Part shown: piece after piece, positions 3,299 to 57,961 of the stretch
Position numbering within the stretch: position 1 is the stretch's first letter
Layout: each line of letters opens with the position of its first letter
Origin: Thioclava atlantica
GTDB taxonomy: Bacteria > Pseudomonadota > Alphaproteobacteria > Rhodobacterales > Rhodobacteraceae
Direction: 5' to 3'
Assembly (NCBI RefSeq): GCF_000737065.1
Contig: NZ_AQRC01000002.1
Location: 248,001 to 312,000 of the forward strand
DNA length: 64,000 nucleotides
Notes under the pieces: generated by a model
What the model saw: only the letters and a program-made list of their open reading frames with translations
Database searches by the model: none
Told to the model about the DNA's origin: nothing
Position numbers and translations under genes: made by a program

Positions 3299-3327
3299 TT
3301 GAAAGAGCGCACCGGCCCGTCTATCTT
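3299..3327 (+). promoter_or_regulatory. Sigma70-type promoter of infC
   Basis: TTGAAA at 3299-3304 and TATCTT at 3322-3327 are separated by exactly 17 bp, about 40 bp before the infC start. The match to the housekeeping consensus is 5/6 in the -35 box and weaker (4/6) in the -10 box. Confidence 0.5.
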
Positions 3328-3367
3328 CTGCGCCTGAATTACTCTTGGCTACAGAAGGATTTCGACC

Positions 3368-3910
3368 ATAGCCCGCAGACCTCACAATGCCCCGCCGACC
3401 CGTGACACCGGACCTCGCGTGAACGGACGGATCCGCGCCCCCGAAATTCGCCTGATCGGCGCGGACGGGGAGAATGTCGGAGTCGTGACGCCCCGCGAAG
3501 CCATGTCCATGGCCGAGGAGGCCGGGCTCGATCTCGTGGAAATCTCGCCCAACGCCAATCCGCCGGTCTGCAAGATCATGGATTTCGGCAAGTTCAAATA
3601 CGAACAGCAAAAGCGCGAAGCCGAAGCCCGCAAGAAACAGAAGACGATCGAAATCAAGGAAGTGAAATTCCGTCCCGGCACGGACATTCACGACTACGAA
3701 GTGAAGATGAAGAACGTCATGCGGTTTCTCGAAGGCGGCGACAAGGTGAAGGTGACCCTGCGCTTCCGTGGCCGCGAGATGGCGCACCAGGATCTCGGTC
3801 TCGAACTGCTCAACCGCGTCAAGGCCGATGTCGGCGAGGCCGGCAAGGTCGAGAGCATGCCCAAGCTCGAAGGGCGCCAGATGGTGATGATGATCGCACC
3901 GACGAAGTAA
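3368..3910 (+). CDS. infC: Translation initiation factor IF-3 (rare ATA start)
   Basis: IF-3 binds the 30S subunit, prevents 50S joining and proofreads start-codon/initiator-tRNA pairing. Translated from ATA at 3368 the product starts (M)[20 protein letters not shown], the conserved N-terminus of rhodobacterial IF-3, giving 180 residues with both the N domain ([17 protein letters not shown]...[17 protein letters not shown]) and the C domain ([19 protein letters not shown]...[11 protein letters not shown]...). A GTG inside the gene at 3419 is the first conventional start but would remove this conserved leader. AAGGAT sits about eight bases before the ATA. A non-AUG start is known in enterobacterial infC (AUU), where IF-3 represses its own translation by rejecting that codon; the same autoregulation is inferred here. 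Monocistronic, with its own promoter and terminator. Confidence 0.93.
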
Positions 3911-3935
3911 GCTCTTCCGGCGATCCGACAGCTCG

Positions 3936-3964
3936 AAACCCTCCCCTCAGCGGGAGGGTTTTTT
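3936..3964 (+). terminator. Rho-independent terminator of infC
   Basis: A ten-base stem, AAACCCTCCC (3936-3945) with GGGAGGGTTT (3952-3961), has a six-base loop and runs into TTTTTT (3959-3964). It begins 26 bp after the infC stop. Confidence 0.9.
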
Positions 3965-4015
3965 CGTTGTGCTGCGCTTGCACGAAGGCGCGGGAGACCG
4001 AAGAGGCGACCGGTG

Positions 4016-4051
4016 AAAATTAAAGCGCCGCGGGAGGGAGACCCGCGGCGC
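4016..4051 (-). terminator. Intrinsic terminator on the minus strand
   Basis: A perfect 10-bp stem, GCGCCGCGGG (4025-4034) with CCCGCGGCGC (4042-4051), has a seven-base loop. On the minus strand it is followed by TTTAATTTT (4024-4016). On the plus strand no U-run follows, so it acts leftward. No protein gene feeds into it, which supports the small RNA call. Confidence 0.75.
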
Positions 4052-4135
4052 ATTTGGGATGAGACGAGGGAGAACGTCTGATCCTCTGTCCGGGCTTGTT
4101 GCGGCTGTGCCGCGTCAGGGAGATCAGAGCCCGGT
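4016..4135 (-). ncRNA. Candidate FNR-controlled small RNA with three UCUCCCU motifs
   Basis: There is no convincing reading frame between the infC terminator and the gene ending at 4338, but the minus strand has all the parts of a small RNA gene. A perfect FNR-type dyad lies at 4170-4183. A TATGAA -10-like box at 4147-4142 is at the right distance for a class II activated start near 4135. A strong intrinsic terminator ends near 4016. The predicted RNA of about 120 nt begins exactly at a stem (CCGGGC with GCCCGG, enclosing GCGGC-ACA-GCCGC). It carries UCUCCCU three times (plus-strand AGGGAGA at 4117-4123, 4067-4073 and 4035-4041), one of them in the terminator loop. Repeated CU-rich loops that pair with Shine-Dalgarno sequences are a known feature of many alphaproteobacterial trans-acting sRNAs. 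No named family was recognised; expression is inferred. Confidence 0.55.
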
Positions 4136-4169
4136 GCACGTTTCATATGGGAGTATTCGCGTGCTGAGA

Positions 4170-4183
4170 TTGACTTAGGTCAA
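4170..4183. promoter_or_regulatory. FNR/FnrL-type box
   Basis: TTGACTTAGGTCAA is a perfect TTGAC-N4-GTCAA dyad, the form bound by FNR/FnrL/FixK-type regulators in Rhodobacterales. Read leftward, its centre is 41-42 bp from the inferred start of the small RNA. No plus-strand gene begins within 2.5 kb to the right, so leftward control is the likelier use. Confidence 0.6.
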
Positions 4184-4337
4184 AAGCGGGTCGGGTTAAA
4201 CTGCGACATGTTGAACACCCGGTCACGTTTCAGCCAGAAGCCGGTGAGATTTGCGTGATTTTCAAGGGGTTTCGCGCATCTCCAGGGGGCCGCCCGCCGC
4301 AGATGCGGCATCGCGCCGCAGTGCGGCACTCGGCGGA

Positions 4338-6560
4338 TCAGAGCCCGCGCAGGGCCTGGCGGATCGCCCGGTTGTCATTGCGCCGCAGAACCGACTCGCC
4401 CATCCGCCGCGCGAGGCTCTCATGCCCCCGCGCCAGAGCCCGCTGAAACAACTCGCGCTGGTAGCGCGGGAAATCGCGCCGGGCCCGAAGGTGGCGGTGA
4501 AACTCGGCCTCGCTCAGCCCTCCGTCGAGCGCGGTCAGAAGGATCGGGCTGAGGATCCCCATCTGGTGCAGCGACGACCCCAGCCGATGCCCCAGAAGCG
4601 GCGTGCGCAGTTTCATCACATTGGGCGCCGTGAAGCGGTTCACATGGCCCGCGTCGAGCGGTTCATAGGGATCGTAGAGGATCGTCACCCGTCGCGCCGC
4701 GCGGCTCGCCTCGGCCGCATCGCCGTACCTGCCGGAGAAATCGCGGTCCCAGGCGACCTTGTAGCGCGTCTCCCAGGGCACGACGGACTTGTCGAGCGTC
4801 GATTGCGGCGAGATCGCCACCACCTCCGCCCCCGGACAGGCGGCCGAGAAGGCGCAGGCCGCATAGCCGCCCATCGACGCGCCGTAGAACACGACACGGC
4901 CGAACTGCGCGAAGAAGCCCTCGGATGCGAGCCGGTCGAATTCCTGCGCCACCCAGTCGTCGCGATACCAGGTCCAGCCGCCTGCCATCGCGCCCAGCAT
5001 CGACCAGCCCTGTTTCTCGATGAACTCAAAGCCCCAGGGCCGGCGCGTGTCGCGCTTGTTCATCGCGATATCGAGATTGTCGAAGGTCACGACGAGCGTG
5101 TCCTTGGCGCGTGGGATATAGAGGAAGCTGTGGCTGCCATTGTCGCGGTAGAACCCCTCCGGCCCGGCCAGCCGCGTCGCGAGTTCCGCCCAGCCCGGAT
5201 CGCTGACCGTCTCCGCGGGCGGGTCGGGCACGAAGACGATCCGGGTGCGCTTGCCCCCTGCCCCGTCGCCGATCTCCGCGATCACCTCATTGGAGCCGAA
5301 ATCGCGCAGGAAGGGGAAACTGCCCGAGCCCTTGCGGATATCCATCACCATCCGGCTGTCGGCGTGAAGCGCGCGCTCGAGGATCGGTCCGAGATGCTTG
5401 ACCTTGTTCACATCCCCGAAGCCCGCGAGGTTGAGCACCAGATCGACGGGCCGCAGATCCTTTTCCGCGCCGACATGGCGGATCCGGGCCGGATCGACGC
5501 CGTTTTCGGCGAGAAACGCGCGATAGCCCGCCACCCAGTCCGATTCCGCTTCGGGCCAGGCCCCGTCCGCGCGCAGGTCGATCAAGGTGATGTCGCAGTC
5601 CCAGCGGTGATGCGCGGCCAGCACCAGCGCGGGCGCGGTGCCGCCCAGATCGGCGATCGAGGAAAGCTCGGCGATGCCGGCCGCCGCGAGCTGTGAAAGA
5701 TTGGCCTCCCTGTCCTCGAAAACCAGCTTCGCGCGGCCCTTGATCGGCGCGAATTCGGGGCGGATATCGTGTTTCTTCAAGAGCGTGTCGAGAAAGCTTC
5801 CCTCGCGCGGGATGCCGTTGAACCGCAGCCCCAGCTCGCGCTTGTTCGAGGCCCAGAGATGCAGCGCGGTGGTGTTCCCGGTCAGCCGCGCCTCGACTTT
5901 GGACGCGCGCCGGATCATCCGCGTGCGTTCGGGGAACGGGATCGGGTAGAAGGCGTCGAGCGGCTGAACCTTGTCCTGAAGTCCGTGTTTCGCGACGAAA
6001 TGGGTCAGCATCATCGGCCCCCAGACGCCCCAGGGGTGCTGACTGACATGGACCGGGTGACCGGCCTTCGCGGCGGCCGCGTACTCCTCGCGCAGCTTCG
6101 GCTTCACGAAGGGCGGGATCGCGTAGCGGTCGGACATGAACTCCAGGATGTCATGCACGATCGCGCTGTCGGCCGGCAGGCCCAGAACCGCGTTGTTCAC
6201 CCGGTCGCTGTCGGGCAGCTCGTAGCCCAAGACGTAGTCGCTGTCATAGTCCATCGGGCGCCAGCAATAGACATCCGTATCGACCCAGATCAGCCCGGGA
6301 TTGCGCGCGATCATGTGGATGCGGAAATAGTCGGCGAAGAGGGCGAAGCTGTCCTTCTTCTCGTATTTGATGAAGTCGTCGGTATCGAGCACCTCGCGCC
6401 CGTCGCGCCGGATCACGCCCTCGGGGACATTGGGGATCTCCTCGTAGGAATAGAGCGTGATGCGCTGCCCGGCATCGACGAAGCTCTTCAGGCAGAGCTG
6501 TTCCATCCAGCTCAGCGCTCCGCCGATCCAGAGCGTGCCGACCTCGCGCACCCGTGCCAT
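4338..6560 (-). CDS. Three-part glycan protein: GT32-like transferase, Rossmann domain, serine hydrolase-like domain
   Basis: 740 residues. Residues 1 to about 225 resemble GT32 (DXD) sugar transferases: GTLWIGGALSWMEQLCLKSF, ITLYSYE and the DXD in LIWVDTDVYCW near residue 92. Residues about 280-470 form a Rossmann-like unit (DLGGTAPALVLAAHH, ITLIDLRADG, VDLVLNLAGFGDVNK), possibly a methyltransferase relative with no clear catalytic motif. Residues about 480-690 look like an alpha/beta hydrolase: LVVTFDNLD, GASMGGYAACAF (GxSxG near residue 558), LYDPYEPLD and a late GHRLGSSLHQMG that may supply the histidine. It is divergent from a two-gene glycosyltransferase unit and shares its last domain with the protein at 10579. 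It probably modifies or builds a surface polysaccharide; substrate unknown. Confidence 0.7.
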   Translation of the reverse strand: MARVREVGTLWIGGALSWMEQLCLKSFVDAGQRITLYSYEEIPNVPEGVIRRDGREVLDTDDFIKYEKKDSFALFADYFRIHMIARNPGLIWVDTDVYCWRPMDYDSDYVLGYELPDSDRVNNAVLGLPADSAIVHDILEFMSDRYAIPPFVKPKLREEYAAAAKAGHPVHVSQHPWGVWGPMMLTHFVAKHGLQDKVQPLDAFYPIPFPERTRMIRRASKVEARLTGNTTALHLWASNKRELGLRFNGIPREGSFLDTLLKKHDIRPEFAPIKGRAKLVFEDREANLSQLAAAGIAELSSIADLGGTAPALVLAAHHRWDCDITLIDLRADGAWPEAESDWVAGYRAFLAENGVDPARIRHVGAEKDLRPVDLVLNLAGFGDVNKVKHLGPILERALHADSRMVMDIRKGSGSFPFLRDFGSNEVIAEIGDGAGGKRTRIVFVPDPPAETVSDPGWAELATRLAGPEGFYRDNGSHSFLYIPRAKDTLVVTFDNLDIAMNKRDTRRPWGFEFIEKQGWSMLGAMAGGWTWYRDDWVAQEFDRLASEGFFAQFGRVVFYGASMGGYAACAFSAACPGAEVVAISPQSTLDKSVVPWETRYKVAWDRDFSGRYGDAAEASRAARRVTILYDPYEPLDAGHVNRFTAPNVMKLRTPLLGHRLGSSLHQMGILSPILLTALDGGLSEAEFHRHLRARRDFPRYQRELFQRALARGHESLARRMGESVLRRNDNRAIRQALRGL

Positions 6561-54872: not shown

Positions 54873-55104
54873 ATCTATTTCCTGTAGCACGCACATGATG
54901 GGGCCGCGCGCACCGACCGGTGTCCTGAAACAGTGTCCACCAGCGCAGGGCGCGGCGTAGGATTTCGGGTGCCCTTCGGATCTCGGGCATTGCCGATCGG
55001 TGGAATACCGCTGAAACGCCGCGCCTATATCCTTCGATCAATCGACGGGGTCCTGCCGGTTGCTAGAGTGGAGCGGAGATCCGTTTCCATCAGGCGCTCT
55101 TGCC

Positions 55105-55992
55105 ATGACGAAGCTCACGCCCCTCGCACCGCCCCGCGATTGCATTGGCTGCCCCACCCGCCGGAGCGGCGCCTGCGCCGAACTGCCCCCACGCACGCAG
55201 GCGCGCCTCGGGGCGCTCGCCCGATCCCGGAACTATCCGCGAAATCACCGTTTCTGGAGAGAGGACAGCCCGCCCGCATTCTACGCCGTCGTGACGCGGG
55301 GCTTCGTGCGGATCCAACGCCACTCCCCGGATGGCCGGCGCCAGATCGTCGGCATAGCGCATCCCGGCGAGCTGATCGGCGCAGGCATCGAGTCGCGCGC
55401 GGGCTATGCGCTCGAGGCGGCGACGCCGGTCGCGCTGTGCCGGTTCGACAGAGGCGCATTCGAGCGCCTCGCGCGCACACTTCCCGACCTGCGCAAGCTG
55501 GTCACGCGGCAGGTGCTCCGCCAACTGCACGAGATCCGGAGCATGAGCTGGATGCTGGCCCGGCTCTCGCGAGAGGAACGATTGCGCCTGTGCCTGAACG
55601 ACATGCGCGATCTCATGCCCTGGCAGCCGCAGCCCGACGGGTCCGGCATCCTCACCGTCGAATGGTCCCGCGCCGACATTGCCGACCTGCTCGGGACCAC
55701 ACCGGAATCGATCTGCCGCGTGCTTCGCCAGCTCGAGAAACGCGGGCTGTTGGGCCTCCTCGATCCCTATCACATCCGGATCGACGACATGGCGGCGCTT
55801 ACCGAGGGGCTCCCCGTGGGCCCGGGCATCGCGCTGCTCCGACCCGCAGAGACCGGCTCCCCGCCCTGCGCATCCTCGCTCCGAAGCGCGGATCAGCCGG
55901 GTTCGGAGCAACGCCTTGATGGGGATCAATGCCCGCGATCCCTTCGCGCGCCACGCTCGCAACGTGAGCGGGAGGCTCCCGACGGGCGCTGA
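55105..55992 (+). CDS. FNR-like oxygen-sensing regulator (four cysteines)
   Basis: 295 residues from ATG 55105. Cys13, Cys16 and Cys24 at the N-terminus (DCIGCPTRRSGACAEL) and Cys112 (PVALCRFDRGAF, aligned with Cys122 of E. coli FNR) give a full set for a 4Fe-4S cluster. Cyclic-nucleotide-like barrel, dimer helix and a winged HTH follow (WSRADIADLLGTTPESICRVLRQLEKRGLL). In the recognition helix the FNR pattern ExxSR is ESICR, with serine replaced by cysteine. The C-terminus is about 45 residues longer than usual and low-complexity. It may bind the FNR-type box at 4170 or regulate nearby P-ATPase and efe genes. Confidence 0.85.
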   Translation: MTKLTPLAPPRDCIGCPTRRSGACAELPPRTQARLGALARSRNYPRNHRFWREDSPPAFYAVVTRGFVRIQRHSPDGRRQIVGIAHPGELIGAGIESRAGYALEAATPVALCRFDRGAFERLARTLPDLRKLVTRQVLRQLHEIRSMSWMLARLSREERLRLCLNDMRDLMPWQPQPDGSGILTVEWSRADIADLLGTTPESICRVLRQLEKRGLLGLLDPYHIRIDDMAALTEGLPVGPGIALLRPAETGSPPCASSLRSADQPGSEQRLDGDQCPRSLRAPRSQREREAPDGR

Positions 55993-56059: not shown

Positions 56060-56737
56060 ATGGACGAGATTGACCGTTTCGAAGATCGCGAGGAGGCTGG
56101 AAAAGCGCTTGCCGACCGGCTGTCGCAGTATCGCGGACAGGATGCGGTGGTGCTCGCCCTGCCGCGCGGAGGTCTTCCGGTCGGCGCCGAAATCGCGCGC
56201 GCGCTCGCCCTGCCGCTCGACCTCGTCTTCGTGCGCAAGCTCGGCACGCCGCACAATCCCGAACTCGCGATGGGAGCGATCGCCGGGCCGCAGGGCGAGG
56301 TCGTCGTGCGCAATCCCGACGTGTTTCGCGCCGCGGGCTGCGAAGAGGCGGAGTTCACCCGCATCGCCGAGCGCGAAAAGGCGGAAATCCTGCGAAGGCG
56401 CGAAGCCTATGGCGCGCCGGATCTGCCCTTGCAGGGCAAGATCGCGATCGTGGTCGATGACGGCATGGCGACCGGGGCGACCATGCGCGCGGCGCTGCGC
56501 GCAGTCCGCCAGAGCGGTCCCGAAAAGACGATCTGCGCGATCCCGGTCGCCTCCCGCTCGGCGCTTGAGGAAATGAGGGGCGAGGCCGACGAGGTGATCT
56601 GCCCGCTCGTGCCGAGCCATCTTTATGCGGTCGGCGCGCATTACATCCATTTCGATCAGGTCCCGGATTCCGAGGTGACCGCGATCCTCGCCCGCGCGCG
56701 TTCGGAGGCTTCCTCGGCGGAGAACCCGGCGAAGTGA
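56060..56737 (+). CDS. Phosphoribosyltransferase-fold protein
   Basis: 225 residues. LALPRGGLPVGAEIARALALPLDLVFVRKLGTPHNPELAMGAIA and the PRPP loop IAIVVDDGMATGATMRAALRAVR are typical of the ComF/erythromycin-esterase-associated phosphoribosyltransferase group. Good ribosome site (GGGAGGG). Such genes often lie beside universal-stress or FNR-type anaerobic genes; the substrate is unknown. Confidence 0.85.
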   Translation: MDEIDRFEDREEAGKALADRLSQYRGQDAVVLALPRGGLPVGAEIARALALPLDLVFVRKLGTPHNPELAMGAIAGPQGEVVVRNPDVFRAAGCEEAEFTRIAEREKAEILRRREAYGAPDLPLQGKIAIVVDDGMATGATMRAALRAVRQSGPEKTICAIPVASRSALEEMRGEADEVICPLVPSHLYAVGAHYIHFDQVPDSEVTAILARARSEASSAENPAK

Positions 56738-57019: not shown

Positions 57020-57226
57020 CCTGCCCTCCATCGCTAGGAAACAAGAGCCAACATAGGGTCCGCGGCCCCGCGCGCATTGACGCCACGCAAAACGACGGGC
57101 CGGGTCTCGCCCTGCCGCCCCCGCACCGGCAGGAATTGGCCTGCCGGCGCTCCGGCAGCAGCCGAGCGGCGCCGGGGGACCGACAGCACCGCGCGCCGAC
57201 CGCTCTGCTGCCCAATGGAGGACGCC

Positions 57227-57961
57227 ATGAGAAAGACCCAGCGGTTTCCGGACAGCCGCGGCACCGGATCGCGGGGGGAGTTTCCCGAACGGCTCCAGCG
57301 GGTTTTCGATGCGCTCTCGCCCGGGCAGCGGAGCGCGCTCGCGAAGCTGTGGAAGACCCGGGCGCTGAAAGCGGGGGACATCCTCTGGCGCGAAGGCGAG
57401 AGCAGCGAGGATCTGGGTTTCCTGCGCGACGGCGTGCTGGCGCTGGTGAAGACCCTGCGCGACGGTCAGCGCCATATCGTCGGGTTGCGCGTCCCGCCCG
57501 CAATGGTCGGCGATGCGTCCGGAGGGGAGGAGGCTTTCGCCGTCGAGGCGCTGAGCGATGCGACGCTTGTCACCTGCAACCGCGCCGCATTCGAGGAGAT
57601 TCTCTCCCGCTCCGCCGAAGCCTCCGATCTCTTCATGCAGATCACCCTCGACGACATCGAGGCGGCGCGGGAATGGAACCTCGTCCTCAGCGCACCGAAA
57701 GCGGCACAGCGGGTCGCCGCCTTCCTCGCCATCCTGTGCCGGTCGGAGACAGGCGACGCGGTGCCGATCCGGCTCGCGATCACGATCAGGCGCAAGGACC
57801 TCGCGCAATATCTCGGCATGCGGCAGGAATCGCTCAGCCGCGCCTTTCACGACCTCGAGGCGCGCGGGATCATCCGCCTGCGCTCCCCTTCGGAATTCGA
57901 CGTGATCGACCGCGCGGGTGTTTTCGGGATCGCGGGAGATGTCGTGACGCGCGACCTCTGA
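57227..57961 (+). CDS. Crp/Fnr-family regulator without cluster cysteines
   Basis: 244 residues from ATG 57227 (GGAGG five bases before). Barrel: KAGDILWREGESSEDLGFLRDGVLALVKTLRDGQRHIVGLRVPPAMVG. HTH: TIRRKDLAQYLGMRQESLSRAFHDLEARGIIRL, with the FNR-type ExxSR (ESLSR). There is no N-terminal cysteine cluster; Cys at the middle only. It resembles DNR/FixK-type regulators that recognise FNR-like boxes but sense other signals or levels. Confidence 0.88.
   Translation: MRKTQRFPDSRGTGSRGEFPERLQRVFDALSPGQRSALAKLWKTRALKAGDILWREGESSEDLGFLRDGVLALVKTLRDGQRHIVGLRVPPAMVGDASGGEEAFAVEALSDATLVTCNRAAFEEILSRSAEASDLFMQITLDDIEAAREWNLVLSAPKAAQRVAAFLAILCRSETGDAVPIRLAITIRRKDLAQYLGMRQESLSRAFHDLEARGIIRLRSPSEFDVIDRAGVFGIAGDVVTRDL

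Follow-up and report, generated by a model that had tools for sequence, protein, structure and literature searches.

PcrZ, a low-oxygen sRNA of 136 nt from the bacterial family considered here, is described in the accessible parts of two papers as being under the control of PrrA and FnrL (PMC8139620, PMC6238624), and in PMC4263372 both PrrA and CrpK/FnrL peaks cover the position published for its 5' end. PMC4263372 also presents FnrS of E. coli, an sRNA which is directly controlled by FNR and represses its targets anaerobically. In Bacilli and Staphylococci, RoxS/RsaE uses C-rich regions to pair with mRNAs of central metabolism and is controlled by the redox-linked regulators ResD and Rex, according to excerpts of PMC8216469. 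The cuckoo/CcsR RNAs (SmelA075 type; RSs0680a-d of R. sphaeroides) consist, in the accessible text of PMC3927594, of several hairpins with variable stems that share an anti-Shine-Dalgarno-like loop, and RSs0680a is reported in an extract of PMC3320616 to be co-transcribed with RSP_6037 from an RpoHI/II promoter. Two further sRNAs of R. sphaeroides, SorX (RSs2461) and Pos19 (RSs0019), have FnrL peaks. SorX is described as a product of the RSP_0847 transcript and Pos19 as a coding RNA that depends on RpoE; both were set aside as candidates for the RNA described below.

The window analysed here, a stretch of 64,000 nucleotides from Thioclava atlantica at G000:C2:248001-312000, contains what may be a free-standing gene for a regulatory RNA in Rhodobacteraceae. 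Sequence comparison supports this gene and its promoter well, and with them a conserved family of multi-hairpin sRNAs that have anti-Shine-Dalgarno-like loops and a promoter of the FNR type in this bacterial family. The predicted features are the following.

4202..4208, minus strand: TGTCGCA, a further conserved element of the promoter, lying 18 bp above the FNR box
4170..4183, minus strand: FNR/FnrL box TTGACCTAAGTCAA, centre at -41.5 from the predicted start
4142..4147, minus strand: -10-like element TATGAA (TATCA/TAGAA-like in many relatives)
4016..4135, minus strand: predicted sRNA of about 120 nt, its start placed by promoter spacing
4090..4134, minus strand: stem-loop 1, which contains a small inner hairpin and UCUCCCU at 4117-4123
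4057..4084, minus strand: stem-loop 2, with UCUCCCU at 4067-4073
4025..4051, minus strand: stem-loop 3, the terminator hairpin, with UCUCCCU at 4035-4041
4016..4024, minus strand: U-rich tail UUUAAUUUU

An earlier note on this DNA had picked out a perfect TTGAC-N4-GTCAA box on the minus strand, a TATGAA element, a start predicted about 41 bp from the box centre with a stem beginning there, three copies of UCUCCCU (one of them in the terminator loop) and a 10-bp terminator with a U-tract, all of which are present; read in the direction of the RNA, the box runs from 4183 to 4170, the TATGAA from 4147 to 4142, and the loop copies from 4123 to 4117, 4073 to 4067 and 4041 to 4035. The note had also placed the RNA between the infC terminator and a convergent gene. 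The terminator lies where this description puts it, at 3935-3962 on the plus strand beyond infC (IF3 domains), which ends at 3910. The RNA gene itself is convergent with infC, and the gene at 4338-6560 is convergent with infC as well but co-directional with the RNA, so this part of the description needed correction. The product of 4338-6560 has 740 aa and no Pfam or NCBIfam match, and the gene is kept beside the sRNA gene in many relatives.

In the whole 3.93-Mb genome the perfect form TTGAC-N4-GTCAA is found five times, this box included, and once in the reversed control; of the looser form TTGAY-N4-RTCAA the window has two sites where 0.03 would be expected. Its centre at 4176.5 corresponds to -41.5 by arithmetic on a predicted start near 4135, and a TTGAY-N4-RTCAA site in that position is the layout of a class II FNR-activated promoter, an assignment that holds for the start as predicted. 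A simple sigma-70 scan of 3300-4700 returned no promoter, as is expected where an FNR box replaces the -35 element. Within Thioclava the looser box is present in 12 of the 13 rows of an alignment most of whose loci came from a DNA query that included the box; G015 has one mismatch, as has the box of G011. Figures for box conservation are taken from this alignment and from matches to RNA models R1 and R2, since the 38 sequences behind two wider alignments, A6 and A7, were gathered by a pattern demanding a TTGA-N6-TCAA box and two CTCCC, and the box is present in them by construction. G015 (L014) is in neither wider alignment because its mismatched box fails that pattern; the near-duplicates L009 and L077 were likewise removed from A6 and A7, and A6 alone also omits L049 and L072, which are divergent.

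The second promoter element, TGTCGCA, had been overlooked in the earlier note. Of 36 aligned promoters, 33 have it letter for letter, with the FNR box 18 bp away in 31 and 17 bp away in two; those of L017, L049 and L072 lack it. TGTCGCA formed part of no exact search pattern, and the Thioclava DNA query stopped short of it. It is probably the site of a second redox regulator and may be a half-site of the RegA/PrrA type, and the constant arrangement of TGTCGCA, 18 bp and FNR box would offer a clean case for joint activation by two redox regulators. These elements also bear on the origin of the RNA. Conceivably, most of the RNA is produced by processing from the 3' end of the gene upstream, at 4338-6560, as 3'-UTR-derived sRNAs are, given that this gene is on the same strand, ends 155 bp from the box and is followed by no U-tailed terminator on the minus strand before the box in a simple scan. 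The same gap, however, holds the FNR box, the -10-like element and TGTCGCA at constant spacing, and a clear relative of the 740-aa gene was not found beside every copy (the R. capsulatus stretch is one example), which makes such an origin improbable.

The minus strand of 4016-4135 is predicted to fold with -56.8 kcal/mol (z = -5.86; none of 200 shuffles folds as well); the plus strand also folds well (z = -4.16). The terminator has ten G-C pairs, a 7-nt loop and TTTAATTTT. The UCUCCCU copies are largely unpaired in the predicted ensemble, with modelled probabilities of 0.81-1.0 per base, the one exception being the final base of copy 1 (0.28). The 7-mer by itself is not rare (5 in the window against 7.25 expected), so the evidential weight lies on its conservation, and three of the five copies fall within 89 nt on one strand.

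The gene is present in 15 of 16 Thioclava genomes. Thirteen were found by DNA search, and G005 and G011 by model R2 near infC (75 and 74.6 bits); for G013, model R2 near infC gave 11.9 bits at best and no copy. In G006 the DNA search matched the terminator part only, and its RNA, in which most other letters have changed, nevertheless folds into three hairpins whose loops carry UCUCCC. The conservation of box, loops and terminator in related genomes, on which the earlier note had staked its proposal, is thus borne out within the genus.

The 34-row alignment A6, made from sequence only, places paired bases in 87.7% of cells. Of its 32 pairs, 18 change on both sides, compared with 11.9 +/- 1.6 in shuffles (none of 500 reaches 18) and at most 10 in slid controls, and the covariation score is 0.216 vs 0.133, a value as high being found in none of 500 shuffles. 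The number of pair types is weakly above shuffles (29 of 500 reach the observed number); within Thioclava alone 485 of 500 do so. RNAalifold predicts the same three hairpins for the family with a shorter stem 2, and the outer part of stem 2 aligns poorly (70% of cells). Loops are more conserved than stems in hairpin 1 (0.990 vs 0.801) and hairpin 2 (0.995 vs 0.690); in hairpin 3 the loop is no more conserved than the stem (0.954 vs 0.957), so the excess holds for two of the three. The UCUCCC of loop 2, with its conservation of 0.99, lay outside the exact-pattern scan. The promoter layout, the hairpins and the conservation of the loops can be read from the aligned letters themselves.

The earlier note had seen no protein frame. 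A frame of 150 aa (4146-3694, minus strand) is in fact open across the gene, and one might suppose that it encodes a small protein. None of 12 aligned relatives has an in-frame ATG at the same place, gaps of one or two bases disrupt the frame, and the changes follow base pairing; a coding function is exceedingly improbable, and the absence of a conserved frame stands. A predicted promoter and terminator of its own, a conserved structure and no conserved reading frame are together what marks a trans-acting sRNA gene.

Beyond the genus, model R1, which covers the RNA body alone and was built on 10 Thioclava sequences, matches at least 49 of 394 family genomes at E <= 0.01, with filters that lose weak matches. 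Ten matches have E < 1e-8, eight of them in other genera, and an FNR box stands 44-45 bases above the model start in all ten. The search of relatives that the earlier note had proposed has in this way favoured it. An exact-pattern scan of the genome collection returned 34 stretches, of which 31 were judged family members from their letters and three (L048, L068, L069) chance. The members come from Rhodobacter capsulatus (2), R. viridis, R. aestuarii, R. maris, Rhodobacter sp. TJ_12, Sinirhodobacter (3), Phaeovulum (3), Frigidibacter (2), Defluviimonas, Sedimentimonas, Pseudothioclava, Thioclava (4) and MAGs, one of which is labelled Sphingomonadales and has the Rhodobacteraceae neighbour gene. 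Of the 31 stretches, 22 include infC and three more include a clear relative of the 740-aa gene (>=57% identity), giving 25 of 31; the stretches are short, so that a missing neighbour says little. The linkage to infC is not universal, the RNA and infC being on different contigs in G220 (Frigidibacter) and G267 (Phaeovulum vinaykumarii), and occurrence away from infC indicates that the sRNA gene is independent of its neighbours.

In 38 genomes R1 matched only weakly and infC was located; eight of them have the match within 10 kb of infC, and one of these, G154, looks like chance from its letters. Model R2, applied to 40 infC neighbourhoods that were chosen and not random, found nine loci with E < 1e-4. 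The box is at -43/-44 in five of them (L287, L298, L291, L292, L266), at -43 with one mismatch in L288, at -100 in L296, at -146 in L295, and about 480 bases upstream in L293, with further CUCCC/UCCCU hairpins lying between. Divergent infC-linked relatives in other genera seem to bear such extra hairpins behind one FNR box, up to at least five, in these regions:

L293, 6692-7277: extra-hairpin region
L295, 5863-6118: extra-hairpin region
L296, 3841-4055: extra-hairpin region
L297, 8460-8574: extra-hairpin region

No copy was detected in R. sphaeroides by the exact pattern or by R1 over the whole genome (best E = 3.1), and the best score near infC is 13.8 bits (E = 0.93), without a box. This bears on PcrZ, whose orthology with the present RNA at first looked likely because of the PrrA and CrpK/FnrL peaks over its 5' end. 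At the PcrZ locus of R. sphaeroides, in a genome that a PufX identity of 100% points to as strain 2.4.1, there is no R1 match and no series of UCUCCC hairpins, and the best score in 5 kb, 9.8 bits, falls on another spot. PcrZ therefore differs from the present RNA in having no detectable sequence or structure match at its locus, and orthology, which was rejected after that reading and with E = 3.1 as the best whole-genome match, is hardly credible. Five R. sphaeroides chromosome-1 peaks without an assigned gene were also read and hold no such RNA. In the visible part of the P. denitrificans sRNA lists, conserved intergenic entries 134, 60, 100 and 28 list R. sphaeroides, where no copy of the sRNA was found, a comparison made by listing.

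The likeness to the cuckoo/CcsR RNAs is one of form, as both have several hairpins, a repeated loop and variable stems, and membership in that group has to be weighed. The cuckoo loop CCUCCUCCC occurs in none of the 34 family sequences, whose loop is UCUCCC, and an array of CCTCCTCCC stands at a separate locus in this genome, as also in T. pacifica and R. capsulatus; membership is thus very improbable and was rejected, and the two groups may nevertheless share a common ancestor. RSs0680a has an RpoHI/II promoter, whereas the RNA here would have its own FNR-type promoter, and in the window the upstream gene is the 740-aa frame instead of a small co-transcribed gene of the RSP_6037 type. The cuckoo/CcsR-type array of T. 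atlantica is at G000:C10:127821-128324, and R. sphaeroides has a similar one.

With 4227 Rfam families at gathering score, the window yielded one tRNA and nothing on the sRNA, which separates the RNA from FnrS, if FnrS is in Rfam. RoxS/RsaE is set apart by the same result and by its description as a Gram-positive RNA with other regulators. The open PMC literature, with subscription papers mostly uncovered, yielded no description of the RNA, in keeping with the earlier note, which had recognized no described family; the RNA may be in print elsewhere, or may figure unnamed in published R. capsulatus data.

The likeliest mechanism, to which we assign a probability of about 0.62, is activation by FNR of an sRNA that acts in trans, its loops pairing with AGGGAGA ribosome sites. 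When oxygen is low, FNR/FnrL would bind the box at -41.5 and activate transcription, with a second redox regulator (RegA/PrrA type) probably bound to TGTCGCA. The resulting RNA would fold into three hairpins, each exposing UCUCCC(U), and end at its own terminator. Its loops, perhaps with a need for Hfq, would then pair with ribosome-binding sites of the AGGGAGA type in mRNAs from other loci, and the effect is expected to be negative, lowering translation or stability of the target mRNAs when oxygen is short. Transcription, oxygen control and the existence of several targets are what we infer. If true, this RNA would be an arm of the low-oxygen response in Rhodobacteraceae, including the model phototroph R. 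capsulatus, by which sets of genes may be turned down when oxygen runs out, and it would be testable at once.

AGGGAGA stands before an ATG at 67 places in T. atlantica (reversed control 3), 73 in T. pacifica (5), 54 in R. capsulatus (0) and 74 in R. sphaeroides (5). As a ribosome site it is plainly common, and no more so here than in R. sphaeroides, which has no detectable copy of the sRNA. This lack of enrichment would suit a different role for an RNA that is real and FNR-driven, in which the loops chiefly sponge G-rich sRNAs or titrate an RNA-binding protein: a sponge would be expected to carry the same loop several times over, and the G-rich RosA pairs with sRNAs having C-rich loops in Bacillus (excerpts of PMC8216469). 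UCUCCC is nonetheless a ready complement of AGGGAGA ribosome sites, and sponging or titration is considered unlikely.

For the preferred reading, pairing with ribosome sites, the gene encoding a DUF2282 protein is the only candidate target and is offered as a lead. Whole-sRNA duplex energies against 66 leaders ignored sRNA structure and were discarded. TCAGGGAGAT occurs before an ATG in 11 of 12 genomes (24 rows), seven rows being the complement of the sRNA gene itself. The longest loop-1 match before a plausible gene, UCAGGGAGAUCA, precedes the DUF2282 gene, which has a homologue in 19 of 26 genomes, with 20 leaders. UCAGGGAGA is present in 10 of the 20 (8 Thioclava, G240 and G129), and the R. 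capsulatus leader has CAGGGAGA. Four genomes have the changed sRNA loop UCUCCCAA: the leaders of G001 and G002 have UUUGGGAG, a matching change, and those of G004 and G015 have UUAGGGAG, which does not match, so that the leader follows the loop in two of four. By short-duplex energy the G001 leader prefers its own partner (-13.0 vs -10.9), and the G002 leader shows no clear preference. Five of the 20 leaders (G031, G220, G005, G006 and the second copy of G004) have no match site, the sRNA being present in four of these five genomes, and five genomes with the sRNA have no DUF2282 homologue at E <= 1e-6. Elsewhere in the T. atlantica genome, a gene with a DUF465 match (L108; G000:C1:360847-360920) carries an AGGGAGA ribosome site with a perfect FNR box 46 bases ahead of it, and could be FNR-activated and sRNA-repressed at once.

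A broader and rather doubtful idea is that Rhodobacteraceae run two parallel anti-Shine-Dalgarno codes, the stress-induced cuckoo loop and the oxygen-controlled UCUCCC family, the flavour of the ribosome site deciding which global condition represses an mRNA, and that the UCUCCC family has grown from three to at least five hairpins behind one FNR box in some genera. Two multi-loop families with different loop letters in one cell would make the regulatory meaning of ribosome-site variants testable.

The window also contains two Crp/Fnr-family regulators close together, at 55060-55992 and 57077-57961. The NCBIfam FnrL model is the best for both, with 86.8 and 113.1 bits; these scores are far below its cut-off of 300 bits, so neither is FnrL itself. 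A second FNR-type box, TTGATGGGGATCAA at 55916-55929, overlaps the end of the first of these frames and lies about 130 bp before the ATG at 56060.
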